From Phenylobacterium deserti (GTDB lineage: Bacteria; Pseudomonadota; Alphaproteobacteria; Caulobacterales; Caulobacteraceae), in the NCBI RefSeq assembly GCF_003254705.1, contig NZ_QFYR01000002.1, positions 310,001-374,000 of the forward strand: a DNA stretch of 64,000 nucleotides. The letters run 5' to 3'. Made by a program: the position numbers and the translations under genes. Positions 32,274 through 50,236 of this stretch are shown here, piece by piece. The notes under the pieces are model-generated. The model did not search any database and had not been told where the DNA came from. It was given only the letters and a program-made list of their open reading frames with translations. How positions within the stretch are numbered: position 1 is the first letter of the stretch; every line of letters begins with the position of its first letter.

Positions 32274-33268
32274 GGCGCGGCCGCCAGGGCGTAGACCTCG
32301 GAGAAGTCGAGGTCGCGGGTGGTGAGCACGCCGATCTCGGCGCCCGGCGGGACCGCCACCCGCGGGGCGACCTCCCGACCGGCGCGGAGGGCCTCGGTCG
32401 TCGCCGAGGCGCCGGGCGCGGCCAGCCAGGCCCAGGGGCCGCGGCGGGCGAGCCGGCCGGCGGCGCCTTCCACCAGCGACACGAGCAGGGCCGGCCCGAG
32501 GCGCTCGCCCCAGCGGTTGTCCACCACCCCCGGCAGGCCGGCGCGGCCCAGCGGGTCGACGGCCGGGGCGGCGAGGTCCGCCGCCACCCCGGCGGGGGTG
32601 ACGATCCGGGTCCAGCTCACGGCCAGCCGGCGGTCGCCGGCCCGCAGGCCGCCGCGGTGTTCGCCCAGCAGCCGGGCGCCGCGCTCCAGCAGCACCACGG
32701 TTCCGTCCTCGCCCCAGACATCGTCCGCCAGCAGGCAGGTCGCCGGTCCGGGGACGGCGCTGTCGAGGGCGGTCTCCAGGATGCACGGCAGGCGCGCCCC
32801 GGCCAGCAGCACCAGCCGGCGATCCGGCAGCCGGCCGGCGCGGACCACGGCCACCGCGGGCGGGTCGGAGCGCTGGACGGGTGTCGCGGCCGGCGTCCGC
32901 GGTTCGGACCCGCCGGCGCGAAACGCGAGGAGCGGGGCGCCTGGCGGCGGCGGCAGATCGCTCGCCGGGACCTCCGGCGGGGTGAGATCCACCGGGGCGT
33001 CCGGCGTCCCGACCGGCGGCGGGGGCGTGGCGGGCGGCCGTCGGGGCGCGGGCTCGAACGGCGCCAGCTCGCGGGCGGCGGCCGAGGGCGACTGCTCCGG
33101 CGCCGGACCCGTCGGGCGGGCGGCGGCCAGGGCCAGGGCGCCGCCGCCCAGCCCGAGGGCGGCCAGCAGGACCAGGCGGGCGGGTGCCCGCCGCGCGCGG
33201 CCGGACACCGGCGAGATCCCGCGGTCGAGGGGCGGCTCGGGGACCGGCGGGTCGGCCTCGGCGGTCAT
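32270..33268 (-). CDS. virB10: VirB10/TrbI core-complex protein
   Basis: A 332-residue bridge between inner and outer membrane. A cytoplasmic N terminus, one transmembrane helix (LVLLAALGLGGGALALAAA, about 32-50), a long Pro-rich linker (about 60-130), and a C-terminal TrbI domain (LPCILETALDSAVPGPATCLLADDVWGEDGTVVLLERGARLLGEH, then ending VPPGAEIGVLTTRDLDFSEVY). Starts 4 nt into the virB9 stop. Confidence 0.94.
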   Translation of the reverse strand: MTAEADPPVPEPPLDRGISPVSGRARRAPARLVLLAALGLGGGALALAAARPTGPAPEQSPSAAARELAPFEPAPRRPPATPPPPVGTPDAPVDLTPPEVPASDLPPPPGAPLLAFRAGGSEPRTPAATPVQRSDPPAVAVVRAGRLPDRRLVLLAGARLPCILETALDSAVPGPATCLLADDVWGEDGTVVLLERGARLLGEHRGGLRAGDRRLAVSWTRIVTPAGVAADLAAPAVDPLGRAGLPGVVDNRWGERLGPALLVSLVEGAAGRLARRGPWAWLAAPGASATTEALRAGREVAPRVAVPPGAEIGVLTTRDLDFSEVYALAAAP

Positions 33269-34104
33269 GGCGCAAGCCCCTTCAGGGTGCGCACGACCTC
33301 GCGGGCGGCCGTGCCGGTGGGGGTCGGGGCCGCCTCCGGGCGCCAGGCCAGGTTGAACAGGCAGAGCGCCTGCCGGCCGCGGCGGAGCCGCAGCTGGGCG
33401 GCGACGCCGTGCACCACCAGCCGGTCGCCGCGGACGTCGAAGCGGGCCAGGGCCTCGGCGCCGTCGGGGCCTACGGTGTAGACCGCCGGCAGGGCCTGGG
33501 CGCCGGCGAAGCGCAGGACGGTGAAGCGGCCGTTGTCGCTGACCTCGGCCGGCGCCAGGGACTCGGGTCCCTGCCGCTCGTAGGCCAAGTTGCGGGGACC
33601 TTCGACCGCGCCGTGCTCGAGTCGCGCGGCCAGGGCCAGGTCGGCCAGCTCCGAAAGCCGGTCGGCGGCGGCGGCCGCCTTCCGCAGGGCGTCGGCCTGC
33701 GGATCCTGGAAGCGCACCACATAGAGCGGCGCGCCGGCTTTGGCCGGGGTCGCGGTCCGCAGGCTGAAGGCGTAGTGGCGCAGGATCCCGTCGGCCCGTG
33801 CGGTCGCCACCAGCAGGTTGCCGGCCGCGGCCGGCGCGGTGGGCCGCAGGAACAGCGCCCCGCCTTCCACCGCGACGTCCCAGGCGGCGCCGTCGCCGGC
33901 CGCCACGTGCCGGACGGTCTCCCCCGCCGGGAACTGCACCTGCAGCGCGGTGCGCGGCGCGGCGGTGAGCGCCACCACCTTGTCCGGCTGATAGTCCAGG
34001 GTGCGGATGCGCGGGTCGGACGCGGCGGCGGGCGGCGCGGCGGCGAGCAGGGCGGCCAGCGTCAGGGACGCGAAATATCCGAGGGGCCTGCGGCGGGGGA
34101 TCAC
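33265..34104 (-). CDS. virB9: VirB9 outer core-complex protein
   Basis: A 279-residue periplasmic protein with a signal peptide (GYFASLTLAALLAAAPPAAA) and the CagX/VirB9 domain: DPRIRTLDYQPDKVVALTAAPRTALQVQFPAGETVRHVAAGDGAAWDV at the N terminus and DNGRFTVLRFAGAQALPAVYTVGPDG in the C-terminal domain that lines the outer-membrane pore. GTG start overlapping the virB8 stop (GTGA). Confidence 0.94.
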   Translation of the reverse strand: MIPRRRPLGYFASLTLAALLAAAPPAAASDPRIRTLDYQPDKVVALTAAPRTALQVQFPAGETVRHVAAGDGAAWDVAVEGGALFLRPTAPAAAGNLLVATARADGILRHYAFSLRTATPAKAGAPLYVVRFQDPQADALRKAAAAADRLSELADLALAARLEHGAVEGPRNLAYERQGPESLAPAEVSDNGRFTVLRFAGAQALPAVYTVGPDGAEALARFDVRGDRLVVHGVAAQLRLRRGRQALCLFNLAWRPEAAPTPTGTAAREVVRTLKGLAP

Positions 34105-34781
34105 GGCGTCACCTCCGGATCGGTGCGATAGCGGGTGACCTGGAAGCCGAGCGGATTGCGCAGCCGGTCGGCCTCGCGCAGCGGCGCGCGGACATAGGCG
34201 AAGCTGATCGTGGCCAGCCAGTCGCCGGTCTCGACCTGACCGCCGCGCCGGAGGGTGCGACGGAACCGGACGGTGGCGACGCCCGGGGCGGCCAGGCTGA
34301 TGGCCCGCAGCTGAACCTCGGCCTCGGCGTCGGGCCCGAGCGCCACTTGCGGACTTGCCGGGTTGGAGGGCCGGAAGGCCTCCGCCCAGCGCTGCTGCTC
34401 GGCGGGCGCCGACATCACCGCCACCTGCCGGAAGTTGGCCTCGGCGGCGGGCGCCAGCCAGCTCTCGCGGGCCCGCACATAGGTGGCCAGGAAGCTCTTG
34501 GTGACCGCTTCCTCCACCGGCATGTCCCGGCGGCCGGACAGACCGGTGAGCACCTCGACCGCGCCGCTGGTCCGGTCGACGCGCACCACATAGGGCTCCA
34601 CCGTCTTCAGCGGCGCGAGGGCGGCCAGGGCCAGGGCGCAGCAGCCGGCCAGGCCGGCCGCGCCGGCTGCGGCGGCCCAGGCCCGCCGCCGGGAGCGCTC
34701 GGCGGCCCGCCAGCGGTCGTGGTCCCAGCTCTCCGCTTCGGCGAGGTAGGCCTGCAGGCCGGACGGGGTTACCGGAGCCAT
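34101..34781 (-). CDS. virB8: VirB8 inner-membrane protein
   Basis: A 226-residue protein with a short cytoplasmic N terminus (ESWDHDRWRAAERSRRRAW), one helix (about 35-58) and the VirB8 periplasmic fold (LKTVEPYVVRVDRTSGAVEVLTGL, KSFLATYVRARESW, and the late NPLGFQVTRYRTDPEV). Start at MAPVTPSGLQAYL; it overlaps the virB7-like gene by 13 nt. Confidence 0.94.
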   Translation of the reverse strand: MAPVTPSGLQAYLAEAESWDHDRWRAAERSRRRAWAAAAGAAGLAGCCALALAALAPLKTVEPYVVRVDRTSGAVEVLTGLSGRRDMPVEEAVTKSFLATYVRARESWLAPAAEANFRQVAVMSAPAEQQRWAEAFRPSNPASPQVALGPDAEAEVQLRAISLAAPGVATVRFRRTLRRGGQVETGDWLATISFAYVRAPLREADRLRNPLGFQVTRYRTDPEVTP

Positions 34782-34948
34782 GGCGTGGGTTCCGGAAGAG
34801 ACGGCCCGGCGTCGGCCGGCGCGGAGGGCGGATTGGCCGGGCGGCGGGGGCCGTGGCAGCCGGTCGACTGCTCGTGGGTTGCGCAGCCGGACAGGGCGAG
34901 CGCCAGCACAAGGGCGAGGGCTGGAGGCCGGGGACGGGATCGTGGCAT
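34769..34948 (-). CDS. virB7: VirB7-like small lipoprotein
   Basis: A 59-residue lipoprotein gene. The N terminus MPRSRPRPPALALVLALA ends in lipobox LSGC with Cys22, followed by a short polar, Pro-rich mature part with a second Cys. GAGGAG lies just upstream of the ATG. The location, between virB6 and virB8, is where virB7 sits in the virB operon; VirB7 anchors the outer core with VirB9 and VirB10. Sequence in this family is barely conserved, so assignment rests on lipobox, size and position. Confidence 0.8.
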   Translation of the reverse strand: MPRSRPRPPALALVLALALSGCATHEQSTGCHGPRRPANPPSAPADAGPSLPEPTPWLR

Positions 34949-34960
34949 CGGAGGGTCTCC

Positions 34961-35899
34961 TCAGGCGCGGCCGCGCAGGGGCCGCACCGAGCCGCCCTCG
35001 CGGGCGATGCGGGTGCGGCCGCCGCCGGCCGGCGACGGGGTGCGGGGACGGGCGCCGAGCCCGAGGGCGGCGGCGTTGGCGAAGTCGGCCAGGCCGGCGG
35101 AGGCCCCGCCGGCGATGCCGGCGGCGATGGCCGGGACCTGCAGGAAGAGCACGCCGGCCAGCAGGGCCAGGGCGACGAACAGCAGGCCGGCGGCCACCGG
35201 ATCCTGCCCCTGCAAGGCGGACCACTGGTCGGCGACGAGCGCCTCCACCAGCGCCAGCACCGCCAGCAGCAGGGCGAACAGCACCAGGTAGTTCACCGCC
35301 TGGCTGAGCCAGCCGACGAACCAGCGGCGGGTGGCGTCGAACAGGGCGAGGCCGACGAACAGCGGGCCCAGGGCGATCAACAGGGCGAGGGCGACCTTGG
35401 CCAGCAGCAGCACGCCGAAGCCCACGGCCGCAGCGGCGGTTCCGGCGGCGAACACCGCGCCGGCCACCAGCAGCGGCAGCCAGTCGAAGGCGCTGGCCTG
35501 GTCGGCGCAGGCCTGGCCGAGCAGGCCGGCCCGCGCCAGGAAGGCGTCGAACACCTGGCCGGCGTCCTCGGCCGCCGCCGCCCCGCCGACCGCCCGGGCC
35601 AGCAGATCCGGGGCGGCGTGGAACAGCGGCTGGACGATCCAGTCGCCGTAGGCCGGCGTGGCGGCCAGGGCGTAGAGGGCGGCGAGCTTCACCGACCGGA
35701 CGGCGAAGTCGGCCAGCGGCTCGGCGATGGCCCCGCGCAGGATGGCGAAGCCGTAGAGCAGGACGTAGAGCGCCAGCGCCAGGCGCAGGGGCCCGGCGAC
35801 CTCGGCGATGGCGCGGGCGGCCCCGTCGCCCAGGGCGGCGGCGAGCCGGGCGTCCACCGCCGCATAGGCGGGCCCGAACACCTGGAAGCCGCCGTTCAC
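34961..35899 (-). CDS. virB6: VirB6/TrbL inner-membrane channel protein
   Basis: A 312-residue polytopic protein with five or six hydrophobic segments (LALALYVLLYGFAILRG; LPLLVAGAVFAAGTAAAAVGFG; VALALLIALGPLFVGLALFDATRRWFVGWLSQAVNYLVLF; LLFVALALLAGVLFLQVPAIAAGIAGG). GPLFVGLALF...W and the Gly/Ala-rich end after AAGIAGGAS are typical of VirB6. GTG start overlapping the virB5 stop in the compact operon. Confidence 0.92.
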   Translation of the reverse strand: MNGGFQVFGPAYAAVDARLAAALGDGAARAIAEVAGPLRLALALYVLLYGFAILRGAIAEPLADFAVRSVKLAALYALAATPAYGDWIVQPLFHAAPDLLARAVGGAAAAEDAGQVFDAFLARAGLLGQACADQASAFDWLPLLVAGAVFAAGTAAAAVGFGVLLLAKVALALLIALGPLFVGLALFDATRRWFVGWLSQAVNYLVLFALLLAVLALVEALVADQWSALQGQDPVAAGLLFVALALLAGVLFLQVPAIAAGIAGGASAGLADFANAAALGLGARPRTPSPAGGGRTRIAREGGSVRPLRGRA

Positions 35900-36600
35900 G
35901 GCAGGGCGCCCTGGAACAGGGCGCGGCGGGCGGCCGCGGCGGCGGCGGCGCGCTCGCGCAGCCGCTGGTCCGCCAGGCGCTGCTCCGCCGCCTGGCTCAT
36001 GGCCAGCGCCTGAAGGCGCAGCTGGTCGTTGGCGGTCAGCGCCTGTTCGGCGGCCAGTCGCGCCTGCAGCTCCAGCACGCCGCGGGCGGTGGGCGCCGTG
36101 CCGATCGCCCCGGCCAGCTGCTGCAGCCCGGGTCGGCGGCGGTCGCCGGCCTCCGCCGCGGCTTCGGCCAAGGCCTGGTCGCGGGCGGCGCGGTCGCCGG
36201 TGCGGGCCAGGGCCTGGCCAGGCTCGTCCTCCGGCGCGGGCCGGTAAAGGCGAGCCGCCTCCCGCAGCGCCGTCGCCCGCGGGGCGAGCGCCCCGAGGGC
36301 GGCGAGGTCGCCGTCGGCGGCGCGGCGGACCGCCTCGAGCTCAGGCAGCGCGCCCCGCAGGCCGGGCGCCGCCAGGACGGGCGCCAGATCGGCGAGGCCC
36401 GCGGGATTGTTCAGCCGGTCGGAGAGCCGGCGGGCCTCCTCCAGCTGGCCCCGCAGGGTCTGCAGCTGTTCGGCGGCGGTCTGAGCCTGCCGCAGCAGGC
36501 TGGCGTAGCTGGTCGGATCGTGGACCACGACCTGAGCGGCGGCCGGCTGGGCGGCCGCCAGGGCCAGGGCGAGACAGAGGTGCGGGCGGAGACGGCGCAT
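35896..36600 (-). CDS. virB5: VirB5 minor pilin
   Basis: A 234-residue secreted, alpha-helical protein with signal peptide (LCLALALAAAQPAAAQ). The mature protein begins VVVHDPTSYASLLRQAQTAAEQLQTLRGQLEE, the N-terminal pattern of VirB5/TrbJ-type proteins, and is rich in long Ala/Glu/Arg helices. Its ATG overlaps the virB4 stop. VirB5 sits at the pilus tip. Confidence 0.9.
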   Translation of the reverse strand: MRRLRPHLCLALALAAAQPAAAQVVVHDPTSYASLLRQAQTAAEQLQTLRGQLEEARRLSDRLNNPAGLADLAPVLAAPGLRGALPELEAVRRAADGDLAALGALAPRATALREAARLYRPAPEDEPGQALARTGDRAARDQALAEAAAEAGDRRRPGLQQLAGAIGTAPTARGVLELQARLAAEQALTANDQLRLQALAMSQAAEQRLADQRLRERAAAAAAARRALFQGALP

Positions 36601-38981
36601 CAGGCGGATTCCCGTAGGGCTTGGTGGAAGGCGGGGCGCCAGCGGGCCGGGTCGTCGCCGTGGACGGCGCGCAGGCGCTCCAGCAGGGCGACGGTGCCGG
36701 CCCGGCCCGAGAGCACCGCCAGGTGGTCGTCGAGGCCCGTGAGGTCGAGCTCGGCGACGGTGGACTCCAGGCCCTGGCGGAGCAGGAAGCGGTGGGGCCC
36801 GCCGAACCCCTCGCGCACCAGGGCGAGCTCGCGCCGGCTGAGGCCGAACCCCTCCACATAGTCGCGGACCGTGGCGTGCGGGTTGGGCAGGAAGATCTGG
36901 GTGGCGCACTGCTCCACCAGGGTGTGCGCGATCGGCGAGCGCAGGACGTCGGCGGGCGACTGGGTGCCCAGGACCAGCAGGGCGTTCTGCTTGCGGAAGG
37001 TCTTCAGCCCGTCCTCGGCCAGGGCCCGGAAGGCCGGGTCGCCCAGCGCCTTCCAGAACTCGTCGATGTCGATCACCAATCGGCGGCCGTCCGCCAGCTG
37101 CTGCAGGCGGTGGAAGAGGTAGAGCAGCACCGGAGTCCGCACCTCGGCGTCGTCCAGCAGGGCGGTCATGTCGAAGCCGGCCAGCCGCGGGGAGAGGTCG
37201 AGGGCGTCGGCCGCGCCGTCCAGCGCCCAGCCGAGGGCGCCGCCCTGCGTCCAACGCTCCAGCCGCGCGCCGATTCCGCCGGCGTCGCTGTGTCCCAGCA
37301 GGCTGCGGGCGGCGGCCATGGAGCGGTCGGCGGCCGGCAAGCGAAGCAGGCCGGCGGCGGCCGCATCGAGCGCGGTCTCCTCGACGGCGGTGAGCGGCCG
37401 GTCGGAGGGGGCGGCCAACGCCCGCAACAGCCGGCCGAGGAAGCGCCGGTCGGCCGGCGCGTCGGTCAGCGCCTTGAGCGGGGCGAAGCCGGTGGGCTCG
37501 CCGGGCCTGAGGGCCAGGTAGGCGCCGCCGCTGGCGCGGATGAAGATCTCCGCGCCGCGGTCCTTGTCGATGAACACCCGCTGGGCGCCGAGCCGCTCCA
37601 CCTGGGCGAGCAGCAGGTTCTGCAGCACGGTCTTGCCGGAGCCGGAGGGGCCGCAGATGAAGGTGTGGCCCAGGTCGCCCACATGGAAGCTGAACCACAG
37701 GGGCGAGCCGGCGCGGGTGCGCAGCCGGCTGACCGCAGCGCCCCAGTGGCAGCCCTGAGCCTGGCCGGCCGGATGGGTGTGGAAGGGCGCCAGGGCGGCG
37801 AAGTTGCGGCTGGTGATCGCCGCGGGCCGCAGCCGCCAGCGGAAGTTGCCGGGGAACTGCGCCCAGAAGGCCGCCTCCAGCCCCAGGTCCTCGCGCGCCG
37901 CCACCAGGCCGGACTCGGCCAGCAGGGCGCGGGCCGCCGCCATGTTCTGGGCCAGGGCGCGGCCGGTCTCGCCGTGCACCAGGACGCTGGCCTGGTGCTC
38001 GCCGAGGACGAAACGGCCGGACGCCAGGCCGTCGCGGGCCGCGGCCAGGTCGTCGACCTGGGAGGCGGCCGGGTCCTGGGCCGAGACCAGCTGGTTCTGC
38101 TTGCGGCCGAGCACTCCTTGCGCCGCTGCCGGCGAAAGGAAGGCGAAGGACTGGCTGCAGGTGAACGCGAACGGCGCGGAGAGCAGGGCGTCCCACTGCC
38201 CGGGCCGGGTCGTGGCCGGATAGGCCTTGATCCCCAGCAGCCCGGCGTAAGCGGCGGCCCCGGGCGTGCGGATCTCCAGCGCCTCGCGGCCGAAGATCAC
38301 CCGGTCGGCGTAGAGCGCGGCCCCCAGGTGGCCGCGGACCAGCGGCGCGGGTTCGGGGCGCCTGGACAACAGCAGCCGCAGCATCTCCAGGGGCTCGGAG
38401 AACAGGACGCCGTCGCGCTCGACGAGGCTGAGCCGGCGCGGCCCATAGCGCGCCAGGTGCTGCACGAGGTCGCGGCCGGCCTCCGACAGCCGGGCCACGT
38501 CCTCCCGCTCCGTCAGGCTGTCTGCAGGGCGGCGCATCCGCTGCGCCAGCCAGGTTTCCGTCCCGACAGCCGGGACGCTCCCGGGGCGGAGCACCAGGGT
38601 GAGGAACAGCCGGTTGGCGAACAGCGGACGCGTCTGCGTCCGCGCGCGCCAGGCGGCGTCCAGCTCGGCGGCGTAGGCCGACTCGAAACGCCCCTCCGGC
38701 CAGTCGGCCTGCGGCTGGCGCACCAGGTGATGCCAGACCGCCAGCCGTGGGTGGGCGAGGCTCAGCCAGGCGTCGTTCAGCGCCGCGTGCCGGGCGTTGA
38801 GGGTCTCGGGGTCTGCGGTCTCGAAACTGGCGCCGGCCAGTTCGAGGCAGACCATCAGGCCGCCGCTGTCCAGCGCCAGGATGCTTTCGGTGACGTGCCG
38901 GGCGTAGGGCAGGACGCGGCCGGGCTCCGGCTCCCGGCGCAGCGCGCCGGCCGGCGCCGGACGGGCGAGGGGTTCAGCCAT
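36600..38981 (-). CDS. virB4: VirB4 secretion ATPase
   Basis: A 793-residue AAA+ ATPase that powers pilus assembly and substrate transfer. The N-terminal CagE/TrbE/VirB domain is followed by an ATPase domain with Walker A FICGPSGSGKTVLQN (Lys450) and Walker B RLVIDIDEFWKALGD, plus VLGTQSPADVL. The start overlaps virB3 by 8 nt and the stop overlaps the virB5 start. Confidence 0.96.
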   Translation of the reverse strand: MAEPLARPAPAGALRREPEPGRVLPYARHVTESILALDSGGLMVCLELAGASFETADPETLNARHAALNDAWLSLAHPRLAVWHHLVRQPQADWPEGRFESAYAAELDAAWRARTQTRPLFANRLFLTLVLRPGSVPAVGTETWLAQRMRRPADSLTEREDVARLSEAGRDLVQHLARYGPRRLSLVERDGVLFSEPLEMLRLLLSRRPEPAPLVRGHLGAALYADRVIFGREALEIRTPGAAAYAGLLGIKAYPATTRPGQWDALLSAPFAFTCSQSFAFLSPAAAQGVLGRKQNQLVSAQDPAASQVDDLAAARDGLASGRFVLGEHQASVLVHGETGRALAQNMAAARALLAESGLVAAREDLGLEAAFWAQFPGNFRWRLRPAAITSRNFAALAPFHTHPAGQAQGCHWGAAVSRLRTRAGSPLWFSFHVGDLGHTFICGPSGSGKTVLQNLLLAQVERLGAQRVFIDKDRGAEIFIRASGGAYLALRPGEPTGFAPLKALTDAPADRRFLGRLLRALAAPSDRPLTAVEETALDAAAAGLLRLPAADRSMAAARSLLGHSDAGGIGARLERWTQGGALGWALDGAADALDLSPRLAGFDMTALLDDAEVRTPVLLYLFHRLQQLADGRRLVIDIDEFWKALGDPAFRALAEDGLKTFRKQNALLVLGTQSPADVLRSPIAHTLVEQCATQIFLPNPHATVRDYVEGFGLSRRELALVREGFGGPHRFLLRQGLESTVAELDLTGLDDHLAVLSGRAGTVALLERLRAVHGDDPARWRPAFHQALRESA

Positions 38982-39300
38982 GACGCGTCTCCGCCCGCGG
39001 CCGCAGGGCCAGCGGCGTGGTCGAGGCGCCGCCCCAGAGGCGGGCGTTGCGCGCGGCGGGCCGGGTCTCCAGCCAGAGCCGCAGGACGCGGAAGGCGTTC
39101 GGATCCGCCCGGCAGACGCCGCGGAACACCAGGTGCAGCACGGGCGCGGCGAGCAGCCAGGCTGGCGAGCCGGCGGCCAGGAAGGCGACCGCGGAGGCGA
39201 TCAGGTTGAGCCCCATGGCCTCCATCGGCACGCCCCAGACCAGCGCCGGGCGGGTGCAGGCGAGGAACAGGACGTCCTCTGTGAGCGGCGCCGCGTCCAT
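38974..39300 (-). CDS. virB3: VirB3 inner-membrane protein
   Basis: A 108-residue protein of the VirB3/TrbD family: DVLFLACTRPALVWGVPMEAMGLNLIASAVAFL with one or two hydrophobic helices (about 25-60) and the C-terminal DPNAFRVLRLWLETR motif. It lies between virB2 and virB4, one nucleotide downstream of the virB2 stop. Confidence 0.93.
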   Translation of the reverse strand: MDAAPLTEDVLFLACTRPALVWGVPMEAMGLNLIASAVAFLAAGSPAWLLAAPVLHLVFRGVCRADPNAFRVLRLWLETRPAARNARLWGGASTTPLALRPRAETRHG

Positions 39301-39301
39301 C

Positions 39302-39601
39302 TCAGCCGCCCTGTCCGCCGGTGATCATGTCGACGATGGTGGAAGCGCCGAAGATCACGATGATCCCCACGACCACCGTGCCGGCGCGCCGCAGGTCCAG
39401 GTGGCCGAACATCCAGGCGATGCCGGTGAGGATCACCGCCAGGATCGCCAGGCCGCGGACCACGCTGCTGTTCAGCAGGTCGATGATGTTCTGGATGAAG
39501 GCCCCGAGGTCGGCGCCGCCGCCCGCCTGGGCCGCGGCGGGGGTCGCGGCGAGCAGGGCGGCGGCGAGCGCAAGGGGGCGCAGGGCGGCGGCAGGGATCA
39601 C
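39302..39601 (-). CDS. virB2: VirB2 major pilin
   Basis: A 99-residue prepilin. Signal peptide (about 1-24, ending AAQA), then the mature pilin with two hydrophobic helices (VVRGLAILAVILTGIAWMFG and AGTVVVGIIVIFGASTIVDMI) separated by a small polar loop (HLDLRR), as in VirB2/TrbC pilins. GTG start (VIPAAAL) overlapping the virB1 stop; the longer upstream frame is virB1 out of frame. Confidence 0.92.
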   Translation of the reverse strand: MIPAAALRPLALAAALLAATPAAAQAGGGADLGAFIQNIIDLLNSSVVRGLAILAVILTGIAWMFGHLDLRRAGTVVVGIIVIFGASTIVDMITGGQGG

Positions 39602-40191
39602 GGCTGGGCTCCAGGGGCTGGGGTGACGAGCAGGTCTGCGCTGCCGGACCGGGTTGCGAAGACGTCCCAAGGGCGCTCGGCTGCGGGCGGCGCGGACGAG
39701 GCGATAGGCGGAGGGGCCAGCCGCGGCGCGAGGCGCGCGGCGGCGGCGAGCACCTTGGCCACGTAGCCGTTCCGCAGGCCGGCGGTGGCGCGGCCGGTGT
39801 TGTAGCGGCTGAGCGCGATGTGCAGCGCCGGCGTGCCGCTTCGGGCGGCGTCATGCGGTCGGTATCCCGCCTGCAGCACCCGGGCTGCGGCGGCGAGGTT
39901 GCGGCAGGGGTCGAAGGCCGCCTCGACCGAAAGCCCCAGCCATCCGAGGTTGCGGACGTTGATCTGGGCCAGGCCGAGGTCGAGGTTGCGCCCCTCGGCG
40001 ATCAGCCGGCGGGCGGTCGCCGCCGCCTCGCCGGCGGTGCGCGGTCGGAGGGCGCGTGGCTGCGCGCCATTGATCCCGATCGCGAGGGGATCGAGCCCGC
40101 TTTCGACCTGCGCCACAGCCACCAGGGTGACCGGCGCGACCTGCGGGGCGCAGGCGGCGGCGAGAGCGGCGAGGGCGGCGGGGTCGAGCAC
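39598..40191 (-). CDS. virB1: VirB1 lytic transglycosylase
   Basis: A 197-residue peptidoglycan hydrolase that opens the wall for the secretion channel. SLT motifs: catalytic Glu in AVAQVESGLDP (about residue 30), NLDLGLAQINVRNLGWLGL, and LSRYNTGRATAGLRNGYVAKV. First gene of the virB operon. The start codon at 40191 is GTG; no signal peptide is visible from it, so a start further upstream in a different arrangement cannot be excluded. Confidence 0.9.
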   Translation of the reverse strand: MLDPAALAALAAACAPQVAPVTLVAVAQVESGLDPLAIGINGAQPRALRPRTAGEAAATARRLIAEGRNLDLGLAQINVRNLGWLGLSVEAAFDPCRNLAAAARVLQAGYRPHDAARSGTPALHIALSRYNTGRATAGLRNGYVAKVLAAAARLAPRLAPPPIASSAPPAAERPWDVFATRSGSADLLVTPAPGAQP

Positions 40192-40301
40192 GGCGAGGTC
40201 CCGAAGTGAGGACCGACTCCTGACGTGTCCGCCGCGAGCGCGCGATCCGTAGACCTACGGGGTCAGGGCAAGTAAGACTACCTGGAGGGCGCTGCCCATG
40301 T

Positions 40302-40315
40302 CCTGCAGTTGCAGG
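40302..40315. promoter_or_regulatory. lux-box-like inverted repeat in the virB/luxR-type promoter region
   Basis: CCTGCA-GT-TGCAGG is a 14-bp inverted repeat in the 282-bp gap between the divergent virB1 and LuxR-type HTH genes. It lies 110 bp upstream of virB1 and resembles the CTG...CAG dyads of LuxR operators. The rest of the gap holds no gene. Confidence 0.4.
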
Positions 40316-40473
40316 TATCCGCAAGGATTCGGCGTGAACGCCGCAATCGCCTTGCGGCGCTGGACCAATGAACTTGTGAGTTTCGACTGCAGATTGAAGT
40401 CACGGGAACTACTTCCTGAATGGCGTCGTCTTTCTTGGCGGTTTGGGTGGATGCTGTTTCAGGAAGTTTTGCC

Positions 40474-40749
40474 ATGAGCATTGTTGATGATCGCGGGGAT
40501 CGTTCCGCATCGCTTGCCGACGCGGCGCGGCTGGCGCGGCTTGTGACCGACCGTCAAAGGGCCTGCCTAGAGTGGGCGGAAAAAGGCAAATCGGCTTCAG
40601 ACATCTCGGTGATTCTAGGTATCTCGCCGCGCACCGTGGAAGGTCACCTGGCGAAGGCCTGCGCGCTGCTGGGCGTCCGCACGCGGGTGCAGGCTGTGGT
40701 GCGCGCCCGCAAGCTCGGTCTGATCGGTGACGCCGCCGACGATCCGTGA
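40474..40749 (+). CDS. LuxR-type helix-turn-helix regulator
   Basis: A 91-residue regulator consisting almost only of the C-terminal LuxR/GerE HTH (LVTDRQRACLEWAEKGKSASDISVILGISPRTVEGHLAKACALLGVRTRVQAVVRARKLGLI); no autoinducer or receiver domain. AGGAAG lies 8 nt before the ATG at 40474, which is preferred over the upstream in-frame ATG at 40420. It is divergent from virB1 and is the obvious candidate regulator of the secretion operon. Confidence 0.88.
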   Translation: MSIVDDRGDRSASLADAARLARLVTDRQRACLEWAEKGKSASDISVILGISPRTVEGHLAKACALLGVRTRVQAVVRARKLGLIGDAADDP

Positions 40750-40769
40750 TGCGGCGGGTCGGCGGCGGC

Positions 40770-42167
40770 TCAGCCTTGGCGCGGTCCGGCGCTTGGTCGC
40801 GGTCGGGCCAGGAGCGCCTGTCGTCGAGTGGGGGTGTAGCCGACGGCGGCGTACACCCCCGCCATGCCGCCGAAGCGTTGGCTCAGCATCGCGGCGGAGG
40901 GCAGGGCCGGATCCTCGTCGATGGCGTCCACGGTGATCCGCCCGGTGCGATCGAGCAGGGCCTGCAGGCCTGCGGTGAGCTCCGCGTTGGACCGGGTCGG
41001 GCGCGGGGGGCGGCGCGTGAACGGCCGGTCCCGCCGCGCGGCCTCAGCGGAGCGGACCTGGTGGGGCGTAGGGGCGTAGCCGATCAGCTGGTAGGCGCCC
41101 AGCAGGCCGCCGAACCGCGCCTTGTAGACGGACGGGGCGTGGGTGGCCGGGTGGGCCGCGATGATCTTGGCGGAGAGCGCGCCCTGATCGGCCCACGCCG
41201 TGCGGAGCTCGTCGAGAAGGGCGGCGTCTTCCATCCAGGGCTTGCGCTGGCGGCAGCTGGTCTGCGCGGCGTCGAACATCGCGCGGCTGATCACCGGCCG
41301 CCAGGCGCCGGCCAGGCGCAGGCGGCGCGTGCCCCGGCGCCGGCCCTGCAGGTCCTGGTGTGTCATCCCGTAGGTGTAGACGCCGCAGTACTTCTCGCTA
41401 CGAAGCACCGACTTGACCCGCGACTTGGTCCAGAGGCCGCCATGGAGAGCGGGCGTACCCTCAGCGTTGAGCAGCGCGACCAGTCCGACCATCGAATAGC
41501 CGCCGACCACATACAGCCGGAAGATCCGGCGCACCGTCTCCACCTCGGCGGCGGGGCCGGGCGTCAGGATCACCCGGTGTCCTTGCAGCGCCTTGCGGTC
41601 GCCGTCCTGGAGGAGCTGGCCTGGCGCGCCGTCCGGCATGACGATCCTGCGCCGCATTCCGTAGCCCGGCGAGCCGCCGACCCAATAGCCCTTGGCGGCA
41701 AGACCGTGCTTGGCTCGGATCACCTTCGCCGAAAGCTCTCGACTGTACTCGGCCGCCATGCCGCGCTTGATGTGCTTGACGAGGATCGCTGCAAACGAGC
41801 CGTCGTTTACGAACGGCTCAGCGCAGTAGACGACCTGCACTCCGGCTTGCCGGCAGAGGAACTCATAGTGGGCGCTCTCGTCGGGATCCTGGAAGCGTCC
41901 CCAGCGGCTCACGTCGTAGACCAGCACGGCCTCGAAAGCGCGGTCGCCCGACAGCACGTCCGTGAGCAGCTGCTGCAGCGCGGGGCGGGTCTCGAACCGC
42001 AACCCGCTGATGCCGGGATCGGCGTAGGTGCGGTGGATCTCGTACCCTGAGGCCAGAGCGTAGGCGGCGATCGCTGCAGTCTGCGCCTCGATCGAGTACC
42101 TCTGATGGTCCGTGGACATCCGGAGGTACTGAGCAGCGCGGCGGGGCGGGTCGAACGCACGGCGCAT
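40770..42167 (-). CDS. serine recombinase (resolvase/invertase family)
   Basis: A 465-residue site-specific recombinase. N-terminal resolvase domain with catalytic Ser18 in YLRMSTDHQ, then YADPGISGL and VLVYDVSRWGRF; recombinase domain from about 165 (GYWVGGSPGYGMRRR ... RIFRLYVVGGYSMVGLVALLNAEG ... SRVKSVLRSEKYCGVY). The C terminus carries two copies of a roughly 50-residue repeat (317-367 and 397-447), both ending RFGG..G.Y...GY.PT. It probably integrates or excises the neighbouring mobile DNA. Convergent with the LuxR-type gene, 20 bp apart. Confidence 0.93.
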   Translation of the reverse strand: MRRAFDPPRRAAQYLRMSTDHQRYSIEAQTAAIAAYALASGYEIHRTYADPGISGLRFETRPALQQLLTDVLSGDRAFEAVLVYDVSRWGRFQDPDESAHYEFLCRQAGVQVVYCAEPFVNDGSFAAILVKHIKRGMAAEYSRELSAKVIRAKHGLAAKGYWVGGSPGYGMRRRIVMPDGAPGQLLQDGDRKALQGHRVILTPGPAAEVETVRRIFRLYVVGGYSMVGLVALLNAEGTPALHGGLWTKSRVKSVLRSEKYCGVYTYGMTHQDLQGRRRGTRRLRLAGAWRPVISRAMFDAAQTSCRQRKPWMEDAALLDELRTAWADQGALSAKIIAAHPATHAPSVYKARFGGLLGAYQLIGYAPTPHQVRSAEAARRDRPFTRRPPRPTRSNAELTAGLQALLDRTGRITVDAIDEDPALPSAAMLSQRFGGMAGVYAAVGYTPTRRQALLARPRPSAGPRQG

Positions 42168-42982: not shown

Positions 42983-43076
42983 CAGCGCATACTAGACCGA
43001 CGCCCTAGAAGGGCGCGAGCATCGATCCGACTGCAGTCAAAGAGTTGTGCAAGGCATTGTTATTGCGTTCGAAAAG

Positions 43077-43126
43077 CTAGATTGTGGCTCTGGAGGTCTC
43101 CCGTTCGATCCGGGAGGGCGGTACCA
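43077..43126 (+). tRNA. tRNA-His(GTG) 3' fragment, probable attachment-site scar
   Basis: Fifty bases fold as positions 27-76 of a tRNA: anticodon stem CTAGA/TCTGG around the loop TTGTGGC with anticodon GTG, variable loop AGGTC, T arm TCCCG-TTCGATC-CGGGA, 3' acceptor strand GGGCGGT, discriminator A73 and CCA. No matching 5' half (acceptor ACCGCCC or D arm) is found upstream. A73 without the G-1 pairing partner fits tRNA-His of many alphaproteobacteria. The fragment is not functional alone and probably marks the end of integrated DNA. Confidence 0.75.
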
Positions 43127-43474
43127 TCGCTTTCCTGTCGCCCCTCGGGCGTCGGGCTCTGAGCACCCACGATCAACTTGCCTGCGGTCGTGACCGTGGA
43201 GCGCGCGCCGTGTGGGGCAGCGGAGTGTTCCGCGTTACGCCGGGATTCGGTCCGACAGGCTCAGCGAGCTGTCGTGACCGCTGTTGAGGGAGCGCACGCC
43301 AGGTGCGGCCTCAATCGGCGCGCTCAGACGCAGGGGCCTGCCGCCGAGCGGCTTATGTAAGCGGAAGTCCTGTGAGGTTGGCAGCGCTCGACGGGCTGAC
43401 AAGCTCAGCCGGCGAGCTACCTGCCACCGCCCCCAGTCCGCCGCCTCCTGATGTTCGTTAAACGTCGATCCGGG

Positions 43475-44814: not shown

Positions 44815-44878
44815 CGCCCTCCAGGCGCCTGCCGCCGGCCAGCCAGAACCGCAGCTGCCGCACGGGCGTTGTGCCGGC

Positions 44879-45793
44879 ATGGATCAGGATCGCGAACGCG
44901 CCCACCGGGCCTGGCGGCAAGCCGAACGGATCAAGCGGCTCTCGGACGGGCTGCTGCGCCTGGGGCCTTTGCGGCTAGGCGTCGACGGCGTGGTCGCCTG
45001 GGCCCCTGGCGCCGGCACCCTCTACAGCGCCGGCGCGGCCGGGCTGCTGATCTACGAGGCGCTGCAGGCGGGCGCCTCGCCCAAGACCGTGGCGCGCATG
45101 GCCGCCTATCTGCTGGCCGACACCGGCGCCTCGAGCGTGCCCTTCGTCGGCTGGGCCATCGACACCCTGTTCCCCGCCCACCTGATGGCCGCCAAGCATT
45201 TGCTTGAAACGGCGCTGGAATGGCAGGCCGCTGGCGGGGACGCGGAGTGGGCGGCGTTGGCCGACGAGCTCGCGGGCTTAGCCCTGGACCGCTTCATCGA
45301 TCCTGAGACAGGAGTGCTGCAGGAGTTCTTCGACGCGGAGTGGCGGCCGATCACTGGCGAGGCCGGGCTGGTTGAGCCAGGGCACCATTTCGAATGGGCG
45401 TGGCTGCTTGAGCGTTGGGGCGTCAGCCGTGGCGATACGCGCGCCAGGAGTGCGGCGCGCAAGCTGTTCGAACTGGGCAAGCGTGGTGTCGACACGGAGC
45501 GCGAGGTCGCGGTGAACGCCCTGTGGGACGACCTGTCGGTGCGCGACGCGACGGCTCGCCTTTGGCCGCAGACGGAATACCTGAAAGCAGCGCTGATCCT
45601 GGGGGAGGAAGGCGACGCCCTGATGGCGTGCCGAGGTCTGGCGCGGTACCTGGACGTCCCCACCCGCGGCGCCTGGCGCGACAAGATGCGGCCCGACGGC
45701 AGCTTCGTGGACGAGCCGGCGCCCGCGAGCAGCTTCTACCACATCATGGTCGCGCTCCAGGAGCTGTTCGGCACGGCGCGCGCAGCAGGCTGA
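44879..45793 (+). CDS. DUF4112 - AGE-epimerase C-terminal chimera
   Basis: A 304-residue fusion of two unrelated families. Residues about 1-111 are a complete DUF4112 membrane-associated domain (RIKRLSDGLLRLGPLRLGVDGVVAWAPGAGTLYSAG ... GASSVPFVGWAIDTLFPAHLMAAKHLLE). From about 112 on it reads as the C-terminal half of an AGE/mannose-6-phosphate-isomerase-like (alpha/alpha)6 barrel: LDRFIDPETGVLQEFFDAEW, EPGHHFEWAWLLERWG with the active-site His/Glu, LWPQTEYLKAALIL, and PASSFYHIMVALQEL at the end. The N-terminal half of the barrel is absent, so sugar isomerase activity is doubtful. It probably arose by an in-frame deletion joining two neighbouring genes. Confidence 0.85.
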   Translation: MDQDRERAHRAWRQAERIKRLSDGLLRLGPLRLGVDGVVAWAPGAGTLYSAGAAGLLIYEALQAGASPKTVARMAAYLLADTGASSVPFVGWAIDTLFPAHLMAAKHLLETALEWQAAGGDAEWAALADELAGLALDRFIDPETGVLQEFFDAEWRPITGEAGLVEPGHHFEWAWLLERWGVSRGDTRARSAARKLFELGKRGVDTEREVAVNALWDDLSVRDATARLWPQTEYLKAALILGEEGDALMACRGLARYLDVPTRGAWRDKMRPDGSFVDEPAPASSFYHIMVALQELFGTARAAG

Positions 45794-45874: not shown

Positions 45875-47209
45875 TTGGGCGCAGGATCGCAGTTGAACCA
45901 GGAGCGCAGCGCCGAGGCCAGCGAGCAAGTTTTCCGGCGCGTCCTGGTGAACACCGGCAAGCTGCTGGGCGGGCGAACCGTGAACGCGGTGATCAGCCTA
46001 GGCTACACCGCCTTGGCGGCGCGCGCCCTCGGCGTGCAGCCCTTCGGCATCCTTGTGCTGATGCACGCCTTTGCACAGCTGCTCGGCGACGTGGTGCGCT
46101 TTCAGTCGTGGCAGACAGTGCTCCAGTACGGCGCCGAGCCCTTGCAAGAGCGCCGGATCGGCGAGTTCCAGCGGGTGATCCGCTTCACCGCCATGCTCGA
46201 CGTCTTGAGCGGCGTGGCGGGCGTGGCGATCGGGGTGGCGGCAGCGCTCCTGTTCGCAGGCCCGCTCGGATGGGAGCCGGCACAGGCTCCCGCCGCAGCC
46301 GCATATGCGACTTCGGTCGCCATCATCGTCGCCGCGGCGCCGCTTGGGCTGCTGCGGCTGTTCGACCGCTTCGACATCTTGGCGGGGCAGGCGGTGGTGA
46401 TCTCCCTGGTCCGCTTGGCCGGCTGCGGTCTCGGTTTATGGCTGAACTGGTCGCTTGGCCCTTTTCTGCTGGTGTGGGCGGCGGGCACGCTCGCCGGATT
46501 CCTGTGGATGTGCGGCGGCGCCTGGCTCGAACTTCGCCGACGGGGACTGCTGGAGGGGTTCAGCTGGGGCGGTTCTTACCGCATCCCTCAGCCGGGGGTC
46601 TGGCGCTTCGCCTGGGCGACCAACCTCAACGCGACCCTGGGGACCGCCTTCACCCATCTGGTGACCTTGATGGTCGGCAGCGTGCTCGGGCCGTCCCAGG
46701 CGGCGCTTTGGCGGGTTGGCCGGCAGGTCGCCGACGCGATCGCCAAGCCCGCCAAGCTGCTGGTTCCGGCGCTCTACCCAGAGCTTGCGCGGCTGCGCGC
46801 GAGTTCCGGGGAAGCGATGATGTGGCGCCTCGCCGTGCAGATCGGCCTTGCCGCGGGTGGGGTCGGGATTGTGCTGCTGGTGGTCTCGACGTTTGCGGGC
46901 GCGCCGCTGCTGCGCCTCATCCTCGGAGCGGGCTTCGAATCGGCGGCCTCGTTGATGACCTGGCAGGTGGCCGCGGCCGTGGTGGGGCTGATCGCATTGC
47001 CGCTGGAGCCGCTGGTGATCTCGCTGGGCCACGCGGGCGCTGCGGTGCGGGTGCGAGTCGTCGTGGCGGTATGCTATGCGATCGCGTTGCCGCCGCTGGT
47101 GCGCCGTTTCGGCGTCGAAGCGGCCGGGGCGAGCCTGCTTGCGGCCTCCATCGCGCTGGCGCTGGGCATGCTCGTGCTGGTGCTGCGGCGGCGCGGCCGG
47201 TCCGCTTGA
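45875..47209 (+). CDS. polysaccharide/lipid flippase (MOP superfamily)
   Basis: A 444-residue inner-membrane protein with 12 or more hydrophobic helices and the polysaccharide-biosynthesis pattern at the N terminus (KLLGGRTVNAVISLGYTALAARALGVQPFGILVLMHAFAQLLGDV) and in the middle (TNLNATLGTAFTHLVTLMVGSVLGPSQAALWRVGRQVADAIAKPAKLL). It would flip a lipid-linked substrate. It is directly upstream of the acyl-ACP synthetase of the ceramide cluster and may serve sphingolipid or surface-glycan export. Starts with TTG at 45875 or 45893; neither has a strong ribosome site. Confidence 0.88.
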   Translation: MGAGSQLNQERSAEASEQVFRRVLVNTGKLLGGRTVNAVISLGYTALAARALGVQPFGILVLMHAFAQLLGDVVRFQSWQTVLQYGAEPLQERRIGEFQRVIRFTAMLDVLSGVAGVAIGVAAALLFAGPLGWEPAQAPAAAAYATSVAIIVAAAPLGLLRLFDRFDILAGQAVVISLVRLAGCGLGLWLNWSLGPFLLVWAAGTLAGFLWMCGGAWLELRRRGLLEGFSWGGSYRIPQPGVWRFAWATNLNATLGTAFTHLVTLMVGSVLGPSQAALWRVGRQVADAIAKPAKLLVPALYPELARLRASSGEAMMWRLAVQIGLAAGGVGIVLLVVSTFAGAPLLRLILGAGFESAASLMTWQVAAAVVGLIALPLEPLVISLGHAGAAVRVRVVVAVCYAIALPPLVRRFGVEAAGASLLAASIALALGMLVLVLRRRGRSA

Positions 47210-47240
47210 TTTTCGATCCGTATTGCCTGGACGTTTTGCT

Positions 47241-48947
47241 TTGACGATCACCCCGACTTCGCCTGGACGGCGCCTGCGCCATGCCGATTTTGCGACGCTC
47301 ACCGAGGCGCTCGACTATGCCGCCACGGGCGAGACCGGGATCAATTTTCATGACCTGCGCGGTCAGCTGGTCCTGTCGCAGACATACAGACGTCTGAGGG
47401 AGGAGGCGCAGGGCCTCGGGCGGGCAATGCTGGCGGCGGGGCTGGAGGCGGGGGACCGCGTCGGTCTGGTAGCCGACACAACGCCGGAGTTCGTGCGGGC
47501 CTTCTTTGCCTGTCAGTACGCGGGGATCATCCCGGCGCCGCTGCCGCTGCCGGCGCCGCTGGGCGGCAAGGAGGCCTACGTCGCGCAGATCGGGCGGATG
47601 CTGTCGTCGGCCAAGGCCGCGGCGGTGTTCGGGCCGGCGGCCTACGACGAGTGGGTGCAGGAAGCCGGGCGCGAAGCGGGCGCTCGGCTGCAGCTGAGCC
47701 TCGAGACGCTGCCGGACGGGGCGGGGCGGGAGCTGCCGGCCATCGCGCCGGACCAGACCTGTTACCTGCAGTTCTCGTCGGGAAGCACGCGGCATCCGAC
47801 GGGCGTGGTGGTCACCCACCGGGCGCTGATGGCCAATGCGGTGGCGATCACCCGCGACGGGCTGCAGGTGAAGCCGGAGGACCGGGCGGTCTCCTGGCTG
47901 CCGCTGTATCACGACATGGGGCTGATCGGCTTCCTGCTGAGCCCTCTGGCCAGCCAGATGTCGGTGGACCTGCTGCCGACGGCGGCGTTCGTGCGCCGGC
48001 CGAACCTGTGGCTGGACATGATCTCGCGCAACGGCGGCACGATCTCCTACAGCCCGACCTTCGGCTACGAGCTGTGCGCCCGGCGAGGCGACGGCGGCGG
48101 GCTGGACCTGTCGAAGTGGCGCATCGCGGGCGTCGGCGGCGACATGGTTCGCCCCGGGCCGCTGGACGCTTTCGCGGAGACCTTTGGCGGTTCGGGCTTC
48201 CGGCGAAGCGCCTTCGTGGCGAGCTACGGCATGGCGGAAGCCACCCTGGCGCTGACCATGGCGCCGCTGGAAGGCGGCCTGCGCACCGAAACGGTGGATG
48301 TGGACCGGATGGAGCAGGACGGCGCCGTGGTCGCGCCGCAGGGCGAGGGACGCGAGCGCAGCTTTGTGCGGTGCGGCCCCATTCTGCCGGGCCACGAGCT
48401 GCAGGTCCGCGACGAGACGGGTGAGCCTTTGGGCGAGCGTCAGGTCGGGCGGATCTTCGTGCGCGGGCCGAGCCTGATGCGCGAGTATTTTGAGCAGCCG
48501 GAAGCCACCGCCGCCGCCCTGTCGGCGGACGGCTGGCTGGACACCGGCGACCTGGGGTTCGTGGTGGAAGGCGAGGTGGTCCCGACCGGCCGGGCCAAGG
48601 ACCTGATCCTGCTGAACGGCCGCAACGTGTGGCCGCAGGACCTTGAATGGACGGCCGAGCAGGCGGTGGGCGCCCTGCGTAGCGGCGACGTGGCCGCCGT
48701 GTCGGTGACCGACGAGGCGGGCGAGGAGCGGGTGGTGGTGCTGGTGCAGTGCCGCAGCAGCGACCCGGACGTTCGCCGCACGATCACGGAAGACGTCACG
48801 GCCGTGCTGCGGGCCCGGCACGGGGTGGACGCCCAGGTGCAGCTCGTGGGGGCTCATGCCCTGCCGCAGACCTCGTCGGGCAAGCTCAGCCGCTCTAAGG
48901 CGCGAGCGCTGTTCGAATCGGGCGCCTTCGAGAAGACGGCGCGCTGA
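47241..48947 (+). CDS. fatty acyl-AMP ligase / acyl-ACP synthetase of ceramide synthesis
   Basis: A 568-residue ANL-superfamily enzyme. Motifs: YLQFSSGSTRHPTGVVVTH (phosphate-binding loop), WLPLYHDMGLIGFLL, ASYGMAEATLALTMAP, GWLDTGDLGFVVEGE and the C-terminal TSSGKLSRSKARALF with the catalytic Lys. The YHDMGLIG and fatty-acyl-AMP-ligase features suggest it loads fatty acids onto the dedicated carrier protein encoded 1 kb downstream. It adjoins the ceramide reductase gene with no gap. In Caulobacter the same neighbour is the acyl-ACP synthetase supplying serine palmitoyltransferase. TTG 47241 is taken as start; the frame upstream overlaps the flippase. Confidence 0.9.
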   Translation: MTITPTSPGRRLRHADFATLTEALDYAATGETGINFHDLRGQLVLSQTYRRLREEAQGLGRAMLAAGLEAGDRVGLVADTTPEFVRAFFACQYAGIIPAPLPLPAPLGGKEAYVAQIGRMLSSAKAAAVFGPAAYDEWVQEAGREAGARLQLSLETLPDGAGRELPAIAPDQTCYLQFSSGSTRHPTGVVVTHRALMANAVAITRDGLQVKPEDRAVSWLPLYHDMGLIGFLLSPLASQMSVDLLPTAAFVRRPNLWLDMISRNGGTISYSPTFGYELCARRGDGGGLDLSKWRIAGVGGDMVRPGPLDAFAETFGGSGFRRSAFVASYGMAEATLALTMAPLEGGLRTETVDVDRMEQDGAVVAPQGEGRERSFVRCGPILPGHELQVRDETGEPLGERQVGRIFVRGPSLMREYFEQPEATAAALSADGWLDTGDLGFVVEGEVVPTGRAKDLILLNGRNVWPQDLEWTAEQAVGALRSGDVAAVSVTDEAGEERVVVLVQCRSSDPDVRRTITEDVTAVLRARHGVDAQVQLVGAHALPQTSSGKLSRSKARALFESGAFEKTAR

Positions 48948-49886
48948 ATGGCGCGCCTTGCGGCGGTCACCGGCGCCACGGGTTTCCTGGGGCGTCACCT
49001 CGTCCGGGCGCTGTTCGAAGCGGGCTGGCAGGTGCGCATCCTGGCCCGCAAGGACCCGATCGACCCATCCTGGCGCGGCTTCGAGCCGGAGGTTGTTCCT
49101 GGCGACCTCGCCGACAGCCGCGGGCTGGCGGCGCTCTGCGCCGGCGCCGAGGTCGTGGTGCATGCGGCCGGGCTGGTGAAAGCCCGCTCCAAAGCCGCCT
49201 TCGAGGCGGTCAATGTGGCCGGGACGCGCCGGGTCGCGGAAGCCGCCCTCCAAGCCGGCGCTGAGCGCCTGCTGCTGGTCTCCAGCCTGGCGGCGCGAGA
49301 GCCGCAGCTATCCGACTATGCGAGCAGCAAGCGGCAGGCCGAGGACGTCGCCCGGGAGATCCTGAGCGAACGAGTGACGGTGGTGCGGCCGCCGGCGATC
49401 TACGGACCGGGCGACGTGGAGTTGCTGCCCCTGTTCCAGGCGGCCCTGACCAGCCCGGTGCTGCCGGTGTTCGATTCGCGGGCGCGGATCGCGGCCATCC
49501 ACGTGGAGGACGCGGCGCGGCAGATCGCCGCGATGGCCGGCGCCCCACCAGCCCAGGAGTTGGTCACGCTCTCGGACGCCAGGCCCGACGGCTACGGCTG
49601 GCGCGAGCTGATGGAGGCGGCGCTGGCGGCAAGCGGCCGGAAAGCGCCGCTGGTGCGTACACCCGAGCTTCTGGTGACTTTCCTGGGCGTATTCGGCGCT
49701 CTGGGGCAGGCGATGGGCCATTCTCCCATGCTCACGCCCGGAAAAGCCCGCGAGATGCGGCACCTGGACTGGAGCGTCCATGAGGGGGAGCGCGGCCGGG
49801 ATCTGCCCCCGCCCGTCTACAGCCTGACCGACGGTTTCCGCGACACATTGCGCTGGAACCTGGAGGCGGGCGTTCTGTCCCGGTGA
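48948..49886 (+). CDS. cerR: NAD(P)-dependent epimerase family, probable ceramide reductase CerR
   Basis: A 312-residue extended short-chain dehydrogenase. Rossmann motif VTGATGFLGRHLV at the N terminus, VVHAAGLVKARSKAAFEAVNVAGTRRV, and the catalytic YASSKRQAEDVARE (YxxxK) with PPAIYGPGDVE. Immediately follows the acyl-ACP synthetase and precedes the carrier protein and serine palmitoyltransferase, the order of Caulobacter cerR. The reductase reduces the 3-keto group of the oxidised ceramide. Function is by context and homology. Confidence 0.85.
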   Translation: MARLAAVTGATGFLGRHLVRALFEAGWQVRILARKDPIDPSWRGFEPEVVPGDLADSRGLAALCAGAEVVVHAAGLVKARSKAAFEAVNVAGTRRVAEAALQAGAERLLLVSSLAAREPQLSDYASSKRQAEDVAREILSERVTVVRPPAIYGPGDVELLPLFQAALTSPVLPVFDSRARIAAIHVEDAARQIAAMAGAPPAQELVTLSDARPDGYGWRELMEAALAASGRKAPLVRTPELLVTFLGVFGALGQAMGHSPMLTPGKAREMRHLDWSVHEGERGRDLPPPVYSLTDGFRDTLRWNLEAGVLSR

Positions 49887-49981
49887 CGAAATTATTACGT
49901 TTCTATAAGGAACCTGTGGCGCTTCCCGCTCGGGGTTCTTAGCTGTGAGCGCGCGAGGGGCGTAAGGGGAGTCGTCATCCA

Positions 49982-50236
49982 ATGGGTGAGGTGGTCGCAG
50001 ACCTGACGGTGCGCGAGATCGCGCGGGCCGCCGAGACTGTGTTGGGACAGCCGGTGGTGCTGACGCCGGCGACCGATATCGCCCGGGATCTGGCGGTGGA
50101 TTCCCTGGCTTTGATGAACATCGTGATGGAGCTGGAGGACAAGTTCGACCTGTCCATTCCGCTCGATCGCATGGCGCTCGTTCAGACGGTGGGAGACCTC
50201 GCCAGCCTGATCGACGAGCTCCGGACGAAGGCGTGA
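49982..50236 (+). CDS. acpR: acyl carrier protein of sphingolipid synthesis
   Basis: An 84-residue acyl carrier protein. The phosphopantetheine site is the Ser of DLAVDSLALMNIVMELEDKFDL (about residue 40), and the acidic helix after it is typical of type II carriers. It lies directly before serine palmitoyltransferase; its TGA overlaps the GTG of that gene's longer start. It would carry the fatty acid activated by the 47241 ligase. A 95-bp AT-richer gap upstream may hold a promoter. Confidence 0.93.
   Translation: MGEVVADLTVREIARAAETVLGQPVVLTPATDIARDLAVDSLALMNIVMELEDKFDLSIPLDRMALVQTVGDLASLIDELRTKA

Follow-up and report, generated by a model that had tools for sequence, protein, structure and literature searches.

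An in-frame fusion of DUF4112 and half an AGE barrel in Phenylobacterium deserti, made from second copies of two genes

The window analysed here is a stretch of 64,000 nucleotides (positions 310001-374000 of contig C4, genome G000). On its forward strand, an uninterrupted open reading frame of 304 codons extends from an ATG at 44879 to a TGA at 45793 and has normal coding periodicity, with GC fractions of 0.74, 0.52 and 0.86 at the three codon positions. Pfam searches identified two domains within this single frame, DUF4112 (PF13430) at residues 12-108, matching profile positions 2-101 of 105 (E 5e-15; 55.9 bits against a curated cut-off of 23.3), and GlcNAc_2-epim (PF07221) at residues 106-292, matching profile positions 143-347 of 347 (E 1e-36). 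The frame is an in-frame DUF4112/AGE chimera with two sources (see below), as stated in a preliminary description of the sequence. The half (alpha/alpha)6 barrel with EPGHHFEWAW and LWPQTEY recognized there was confirmed as well, because only positions 143-347 of PF07221 are present; this part of the frame carries GHHFEW (GHxxEW), LWPQTEY and a C-terminal FYH. The assertion of a complete DUF4112 holds for the Pfam domain, which is matched as a whole, but not for the gene, whose C-terminal tail has been lost: the intact paralogue encodes 154 amino acids and the frames of most relatives about 136-200, so that the DUF4112 part represents an incomplete gene.

The joint reads LMAAK/HLLETALEW in the protein. 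It had been placed near 45205, but DNA comparison located the homology break at 45193-45196, ~10 bp farther upstream (Table 1). Neither parent was significantly similar across the joint, and no long sequence common to both halves was found there. Upstream of the start codon, similarity to the intact DUF4112 gene covered only ~47 bp and was equalled by 1-3 of 500 shuffles; downstream of the stop codon no homology above that of shuffles was detected. Rfam and tRNA scans of the window gave no hits.

Table 1. Position and origin of the parts of the fusion and of its intact parents (window coordinates unless marked C4 or L037).
Feature	Position	Strand	Remarks
Leader common with intact DUF4112 gene	44832-44878	+	Weakly similar to the 47 bp preceding the intact frame
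DUF4112 half (residues 1-105)	44879-45193	+	Second copy of the gene starting at C4:173856; Pfam, 81.7% DNA identity over 44832-45192, 89% protein identity
Joint MAAK/HLLE	45193-45199	+	DUF4112 homology stops at 45192, AGE homology starts at 45196
AGE C-terminal half (residues 107-304)	45197-45793	+	Second copy of the ManC-AGE 3′ part; PF07221, 95.4% DNA identity over 45196-45781, 97% protein identity
Probable gene-conversion tract	45452-45781	+	Near-identical to intact ManC-AGE; gradient of synonymous differences
Intact DUF4112 gene	begins C4:173856	+	154 amino acids
Intact ManC-AGE bifunctional gene	C4:195299-197530 (L037:299-2533 = C4:195299-197533)	+	744 amino acids

A search for the parents in the same genome found each half once more, in both cases on contig C4, where the two intact genes lie on the same strand, DUF4112 first, with ~23 kb between them. 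The 744-residue protein consists of NTP_transferase (nucleotidyltransferase), a ManC beta-helix and GlcNAc_2-epim and is a mannose-1-phosphate guanylyltransferase plus an AGE-fold isomerase, with the full AGE domain (C4:196562-197494) as its C-terminal domain. Since the halves of the fusion are only 82% and 95% identical to these resident genes, the fusion was built from second copies of them. Compared with the intact genes, the DUF4112 half has 46 differing codons out of 104, 12 of them with a changed amino acid, and the AGE half 26 out of 195 (27 differences, 3 of them nonsynonymous). ManC-AGE sits in a polysaccharide locus together with a Wzz-type kinase, an O-antigen-ligase-type protein and a glycosyltransferase. 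Two tyrosine recombinase genes (L035:16524-17726 and 17795-18820) are located directly upstream of the intact DUF4112 gene. Conserved DUF4112 neighbours that would mark the native copy were not found in this genome.

Among 101 genomes of the genus and 398 of the order, a joined DUF4112-AGE frame was present in P. deserti only, and the two halves were separate elsewhere. Likewise, when profiles of both halves were run against all six frames of 211 sequences (1.5 Mb), both were found in the fusion ORF alone, and none of 72,556 plasmid records covered 80% of the query. Conservation of this architecture in several lineages, which would have spoken for a real family, was looked for in these sets and not found, in keeping with the earlier statement that no established family has it; the DUF4112-AGE fusion is lineage-specific and does not define a protein family of its own. 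The closest match of each half is its parent in the same genome, with relatives reaching 67-70% protein identity at best. The expected separate DUF4112 and AGE genes do occur in relatives: in seven genomes of the genus (G025, G074, G009, G068, G096, G066 and G011) DUF4112 lies 5-90 kb upstream of AGE on the same strand and contig, and in four others (G022, G028, G067 and G115) the two are linked in another order or strand. In many relatives the AGE matches fall within open frames of ~720-790 amino acids. Some matches spanned residues 16-300 and were considered as further chimeras; the two-profile search revealed no second chimera, and these matches are AGE frames with a spurious N-terminal extension. 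Judged by titles and abstracts, no paper on a bacterial DUF4112 protein was found.

The fusion lies close to one end of a possible mobile element. The 3′ 55 bp of a tRNA-His gene (C4:156335-156411; L035:1335-1411) are repeated at window positions 43076-43130, the core of the repeat occurs in exactly two copies in the genome, an integrase gene (L035:1423-2625) abuts the tRNA gene, and conjugation genes and a serine recombinase gene are situated just inside the presumed far attachment site formed by the repeat in the window. This arrangement of sequence features suggests an integrative and conjugative element of ~197 kb that would hold both intact parents, the fusion lying 1.75 kb beyond its end. 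The fusion may be all that was left of a resident polysaccharide region once a related copy had arrived. Window positions 29465-42167 encode a T4SS coupling protein (29465-31306), a VirB4-type ATPase (36600-38981) and a serine recombinase (40770-42167). At the other end, a RES-domain protein (L035:2895-4196, a frame whose listed start may be too early) adjoins the integrase and is probably part of a RES-type toxin-antitoxin pair.

Changes on the chimera lineage were polarised by outgroup counts, that is by the states in the 20 nearest relatives and with no ancestral sequence, which is a rough procedure at synonymous sites because these relatives are distant (~72% DNA identity). In the AGE half, 14 of the 15 lineage changes were synonymous and 1 was nonsynonymous (P ~1e-6 to 1e-8, with a neutral expectation of ~70% nonsynonymous), and in the DUF4112 half 8 of 17 were nonsynonymous (P 0.03-0.10). 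GC3 was 0.765 versus 0.847 in the 5′ part, codons having drifted to AT-ending forms while the protein remained constant. The reading frame itself is undecayed, with neither stops nor frameshifts. These data exclude an old pseudogene in decay. The lineage substitutions may reflect selection on the fusion, or divergence before the joining, when the AGE copy was still full length; as they could predate the joining, the low nonsynonymous count does not show selection on the fusion.

Synonymous differences from the intact gene were unevenly distributed along the AGE half. They affected 18 of 83 codons between 45197 and 45451 versus 5 of 109 between 45452 and 45781 (Fisher P 0.0005, an optimistic value because the cut point was picked after the data had been seen). 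The relatives have no such gradient (means 0.31 and 0.30), and a four-fold ratio occurred in 1 of 41 pairs. Gene conversion with the intact ManC-AGE gene has probably homogenised the last ~110 codons. The DUF4112 half, with synonymous differences in 35 of 93 codons, was in turn more diverged than the 5′ part of the AGE half (18 of 83; Fisher P 0.02).

Because both parents are intact, the fusion must stem either from a deletion within another copy of the region or from a duplicated fragment that was inserted. We favour the first course, which we consider somewhat probable: a lineage-specific chimera would have formed by non-homologous joining in a second copy of the polysaccharide region, with the intact copies in service, later conversion of the 3′ part and a product that is a by-product. 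In this account, a second, diverged copy of the region would have carried DUF4112 upstream of ManC-AGE on the same strand, and a deletion of ~23 kb within it would have joined the start of DUF4112 to the end of AGE non-homologously. The intact copies of both genes would still serve the cell, and the 3′ part of the fusion would afterwards have been homogenised with intact ManC-AGE. A deletion between linked DUF4112 and AGE genes yields exactly this type of chimera, with the 5′ part of one gene and the 3′ part of the other in frame, and the order and strand of the parents on C4 and in the seven genus genomes match what such a deletion needs. An intact pair was seen elsewhere in the genome and, as linked genes, in these seven relatives, the comparison covering these pairs. 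The earlier proposal of a deletion joining two neighbouring genes fits in order and strand but holds only in part, as both intact copies remain, ~23 kb apart. Three points speak against a deletion in a second copy: as the flanks have no wider homology, a 23-kb duplication cannot be seen directly; the unequal synonymous divergence of the halves fits a single event only if rates differ; and the undecayed frame would also fit a maintained gene.

The second course, in which a duplicated ManC-AGE fragment was pasted behind an already existing second DUF4112 gene by illegitimate recombination, is possible but in our judgement rather unlikely. It would explain why the halves diverge unequally from their parents, and it agrees with an AGE fragment that ends near the stop codon with no shared flank. 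However, it needs an independent duplication whose landing happened to give an open frame, the right strand and the gene order known from the genus, and the conversion-like tract accounts for part of the higher identity of the AGE half.

For the predicted product, AlphaFold2 (83-row alignment) gave a highly confident model of residues 161-304, with pLDDT >90 over most of the C-terminal part of the barrel, but a poor one of residues 11-40 and 91-160. Foldseek matches to the model were AGE-superfamily enzymes, with about half of the target covered and a TM score by target of ~0.4. The (alpha/alpha)6 barrel is incomplete, PF07221 positions 1-142 being absent. In solved members of the AGE superfamily the active-site residues come from both halves (Arg58, Glu243 and His373 in Nostoc AGE; contacts of YihS through Tyr111, Asn172 and His176), and it is the N-terminal half that supplies the arginine and the contacts to the substrate (Arg58; Phe116/Tyr111; Ala173/Asn172) (PMC6333288). 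Mapped by motif without superposition, the positions of Arg58, Tyr111 and Asn172 are missing from the fusion, GHHFEW and FYH are present, and the joint falls at the position of YihS His176. If made, the product would, to judge from its sequence, comprise a truncated DUF4112 and half an (alpha/alpha)6 barrel. Such a protein most likely has no isomerase activity, because the arginine and sugar-binding residues of the N-terminal half are absent and only the histidines of the C-terminal half are kept.

A functional new gene, expressed and under purifying selection, for example as a sugar-binding half barrel or as a partner of the intact enzyme, would be consistent with the low nonsynonymous counts of the AGE half and, at P 0.03-0.10, of the DUF4112 half, with the drift to AT-ending codons at constant protein sequence and with the confidently modelled barrel part. 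We nevertheless judge it unlikely. The substitutions may predate the fusion and so do not isolate selection on it; the model is poor from the joint to residue 160 (pLDDT 40-70), where the missing half barrel would pack; the fusion was kept in no other genome searched; and a promoter and terminator scan found nothing, including no promoter-like site upstream of the fusion, although such a scan is a weak test in this group. The more specific idea of a young functional gene, in which a half barrel borne by DUF4112 is a sugar-binding or regulatory partner of intact ManC-AGE, appears doubtful to us. Most likely the fusion is a by-product and not a selected gene, with function probably absent.

Acquisition of the ready-made fusion from an unsampled related species would suit its position just outside the tRNA-His-derived repeat that bounds the possible element, but is quite improbable, as the fusion is absent from the sampled relatives and plasmid records and hardly differs from the resident gene in its 3′ part. 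An assembly artefact is very improbable, because the halves, which diverge by 18% and 5% from the resident copies and have no repeat where they meet, could hardly be a splice of those copies, and the genome is 99.8% complete with 0.4% contamination in 10 contigs.

Bacterial gene fusions born by deletion are documented, and no function of clear benefit has been identified for them (Kaul et al. 2026 preprint, PMC12803068). The present case is a real lineage-specific fusion of this known kind: the start of one ORF runs in frame into the end of another, a deletion being the simplest cause. It differs in that both parents survive and a second copy was used, and in that it is described from one genome. 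ManC-AGE proteins are the source of its C-terminal half, but the fusion has none of their guanylyltransferase part and no N-terminal half of the barrel. With DUF4112 proteins (PF13430) it shares residues 1-105, whereas their C-terminal tail has been swapped for the AGE half. With the AGE superfamily (PF07221; PDB 3wkg, 8bry, 5x32 and 2zbl) it shares the C-terminal half of the fold and the histidine motifs but not profile positions 1-142, the complete barrel or the complete active site. The fusion is a clean natural example of gene birth from parts of two unrelated genes, and as both intact parents are still in the genome, the joint, the divergence and the probable gene conversion can all be read. 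If it proved to be made and needed, it would bear on the question of whether deletion-born fusions are beneficial (PMC12803068); if it is a by-product, it is a modest curiosity, an example of accidental gene fusion.

The suggestion that the LacI gene upstream once controlled the intact sugar gene found no support, since the intact AGE domain belongs to the ManC fusion in the polysaccharide locus. The nearest LacI orthologue (68% identical, in G009) is flanked by TonB-receptor-like and MFS-transporter-like genes, as read from ORF sequences and not from a family search, and these neighbours point to sugar uptake and not to AGE. Downstream of the fusion, window positions 45893-50236 hold a run of genes named from sequence as encoding flippase-, acyl-AMP-ligase-, NAD-epimerase- and acyl-carrier-like proteins. 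The stretches of the P. deserti genome that were compared did not contain the gene that lies upstream of this flippase in relatives. A match to the flippase occurred in 37 of 100 genomes of the genus, in most cases next to the ligase.
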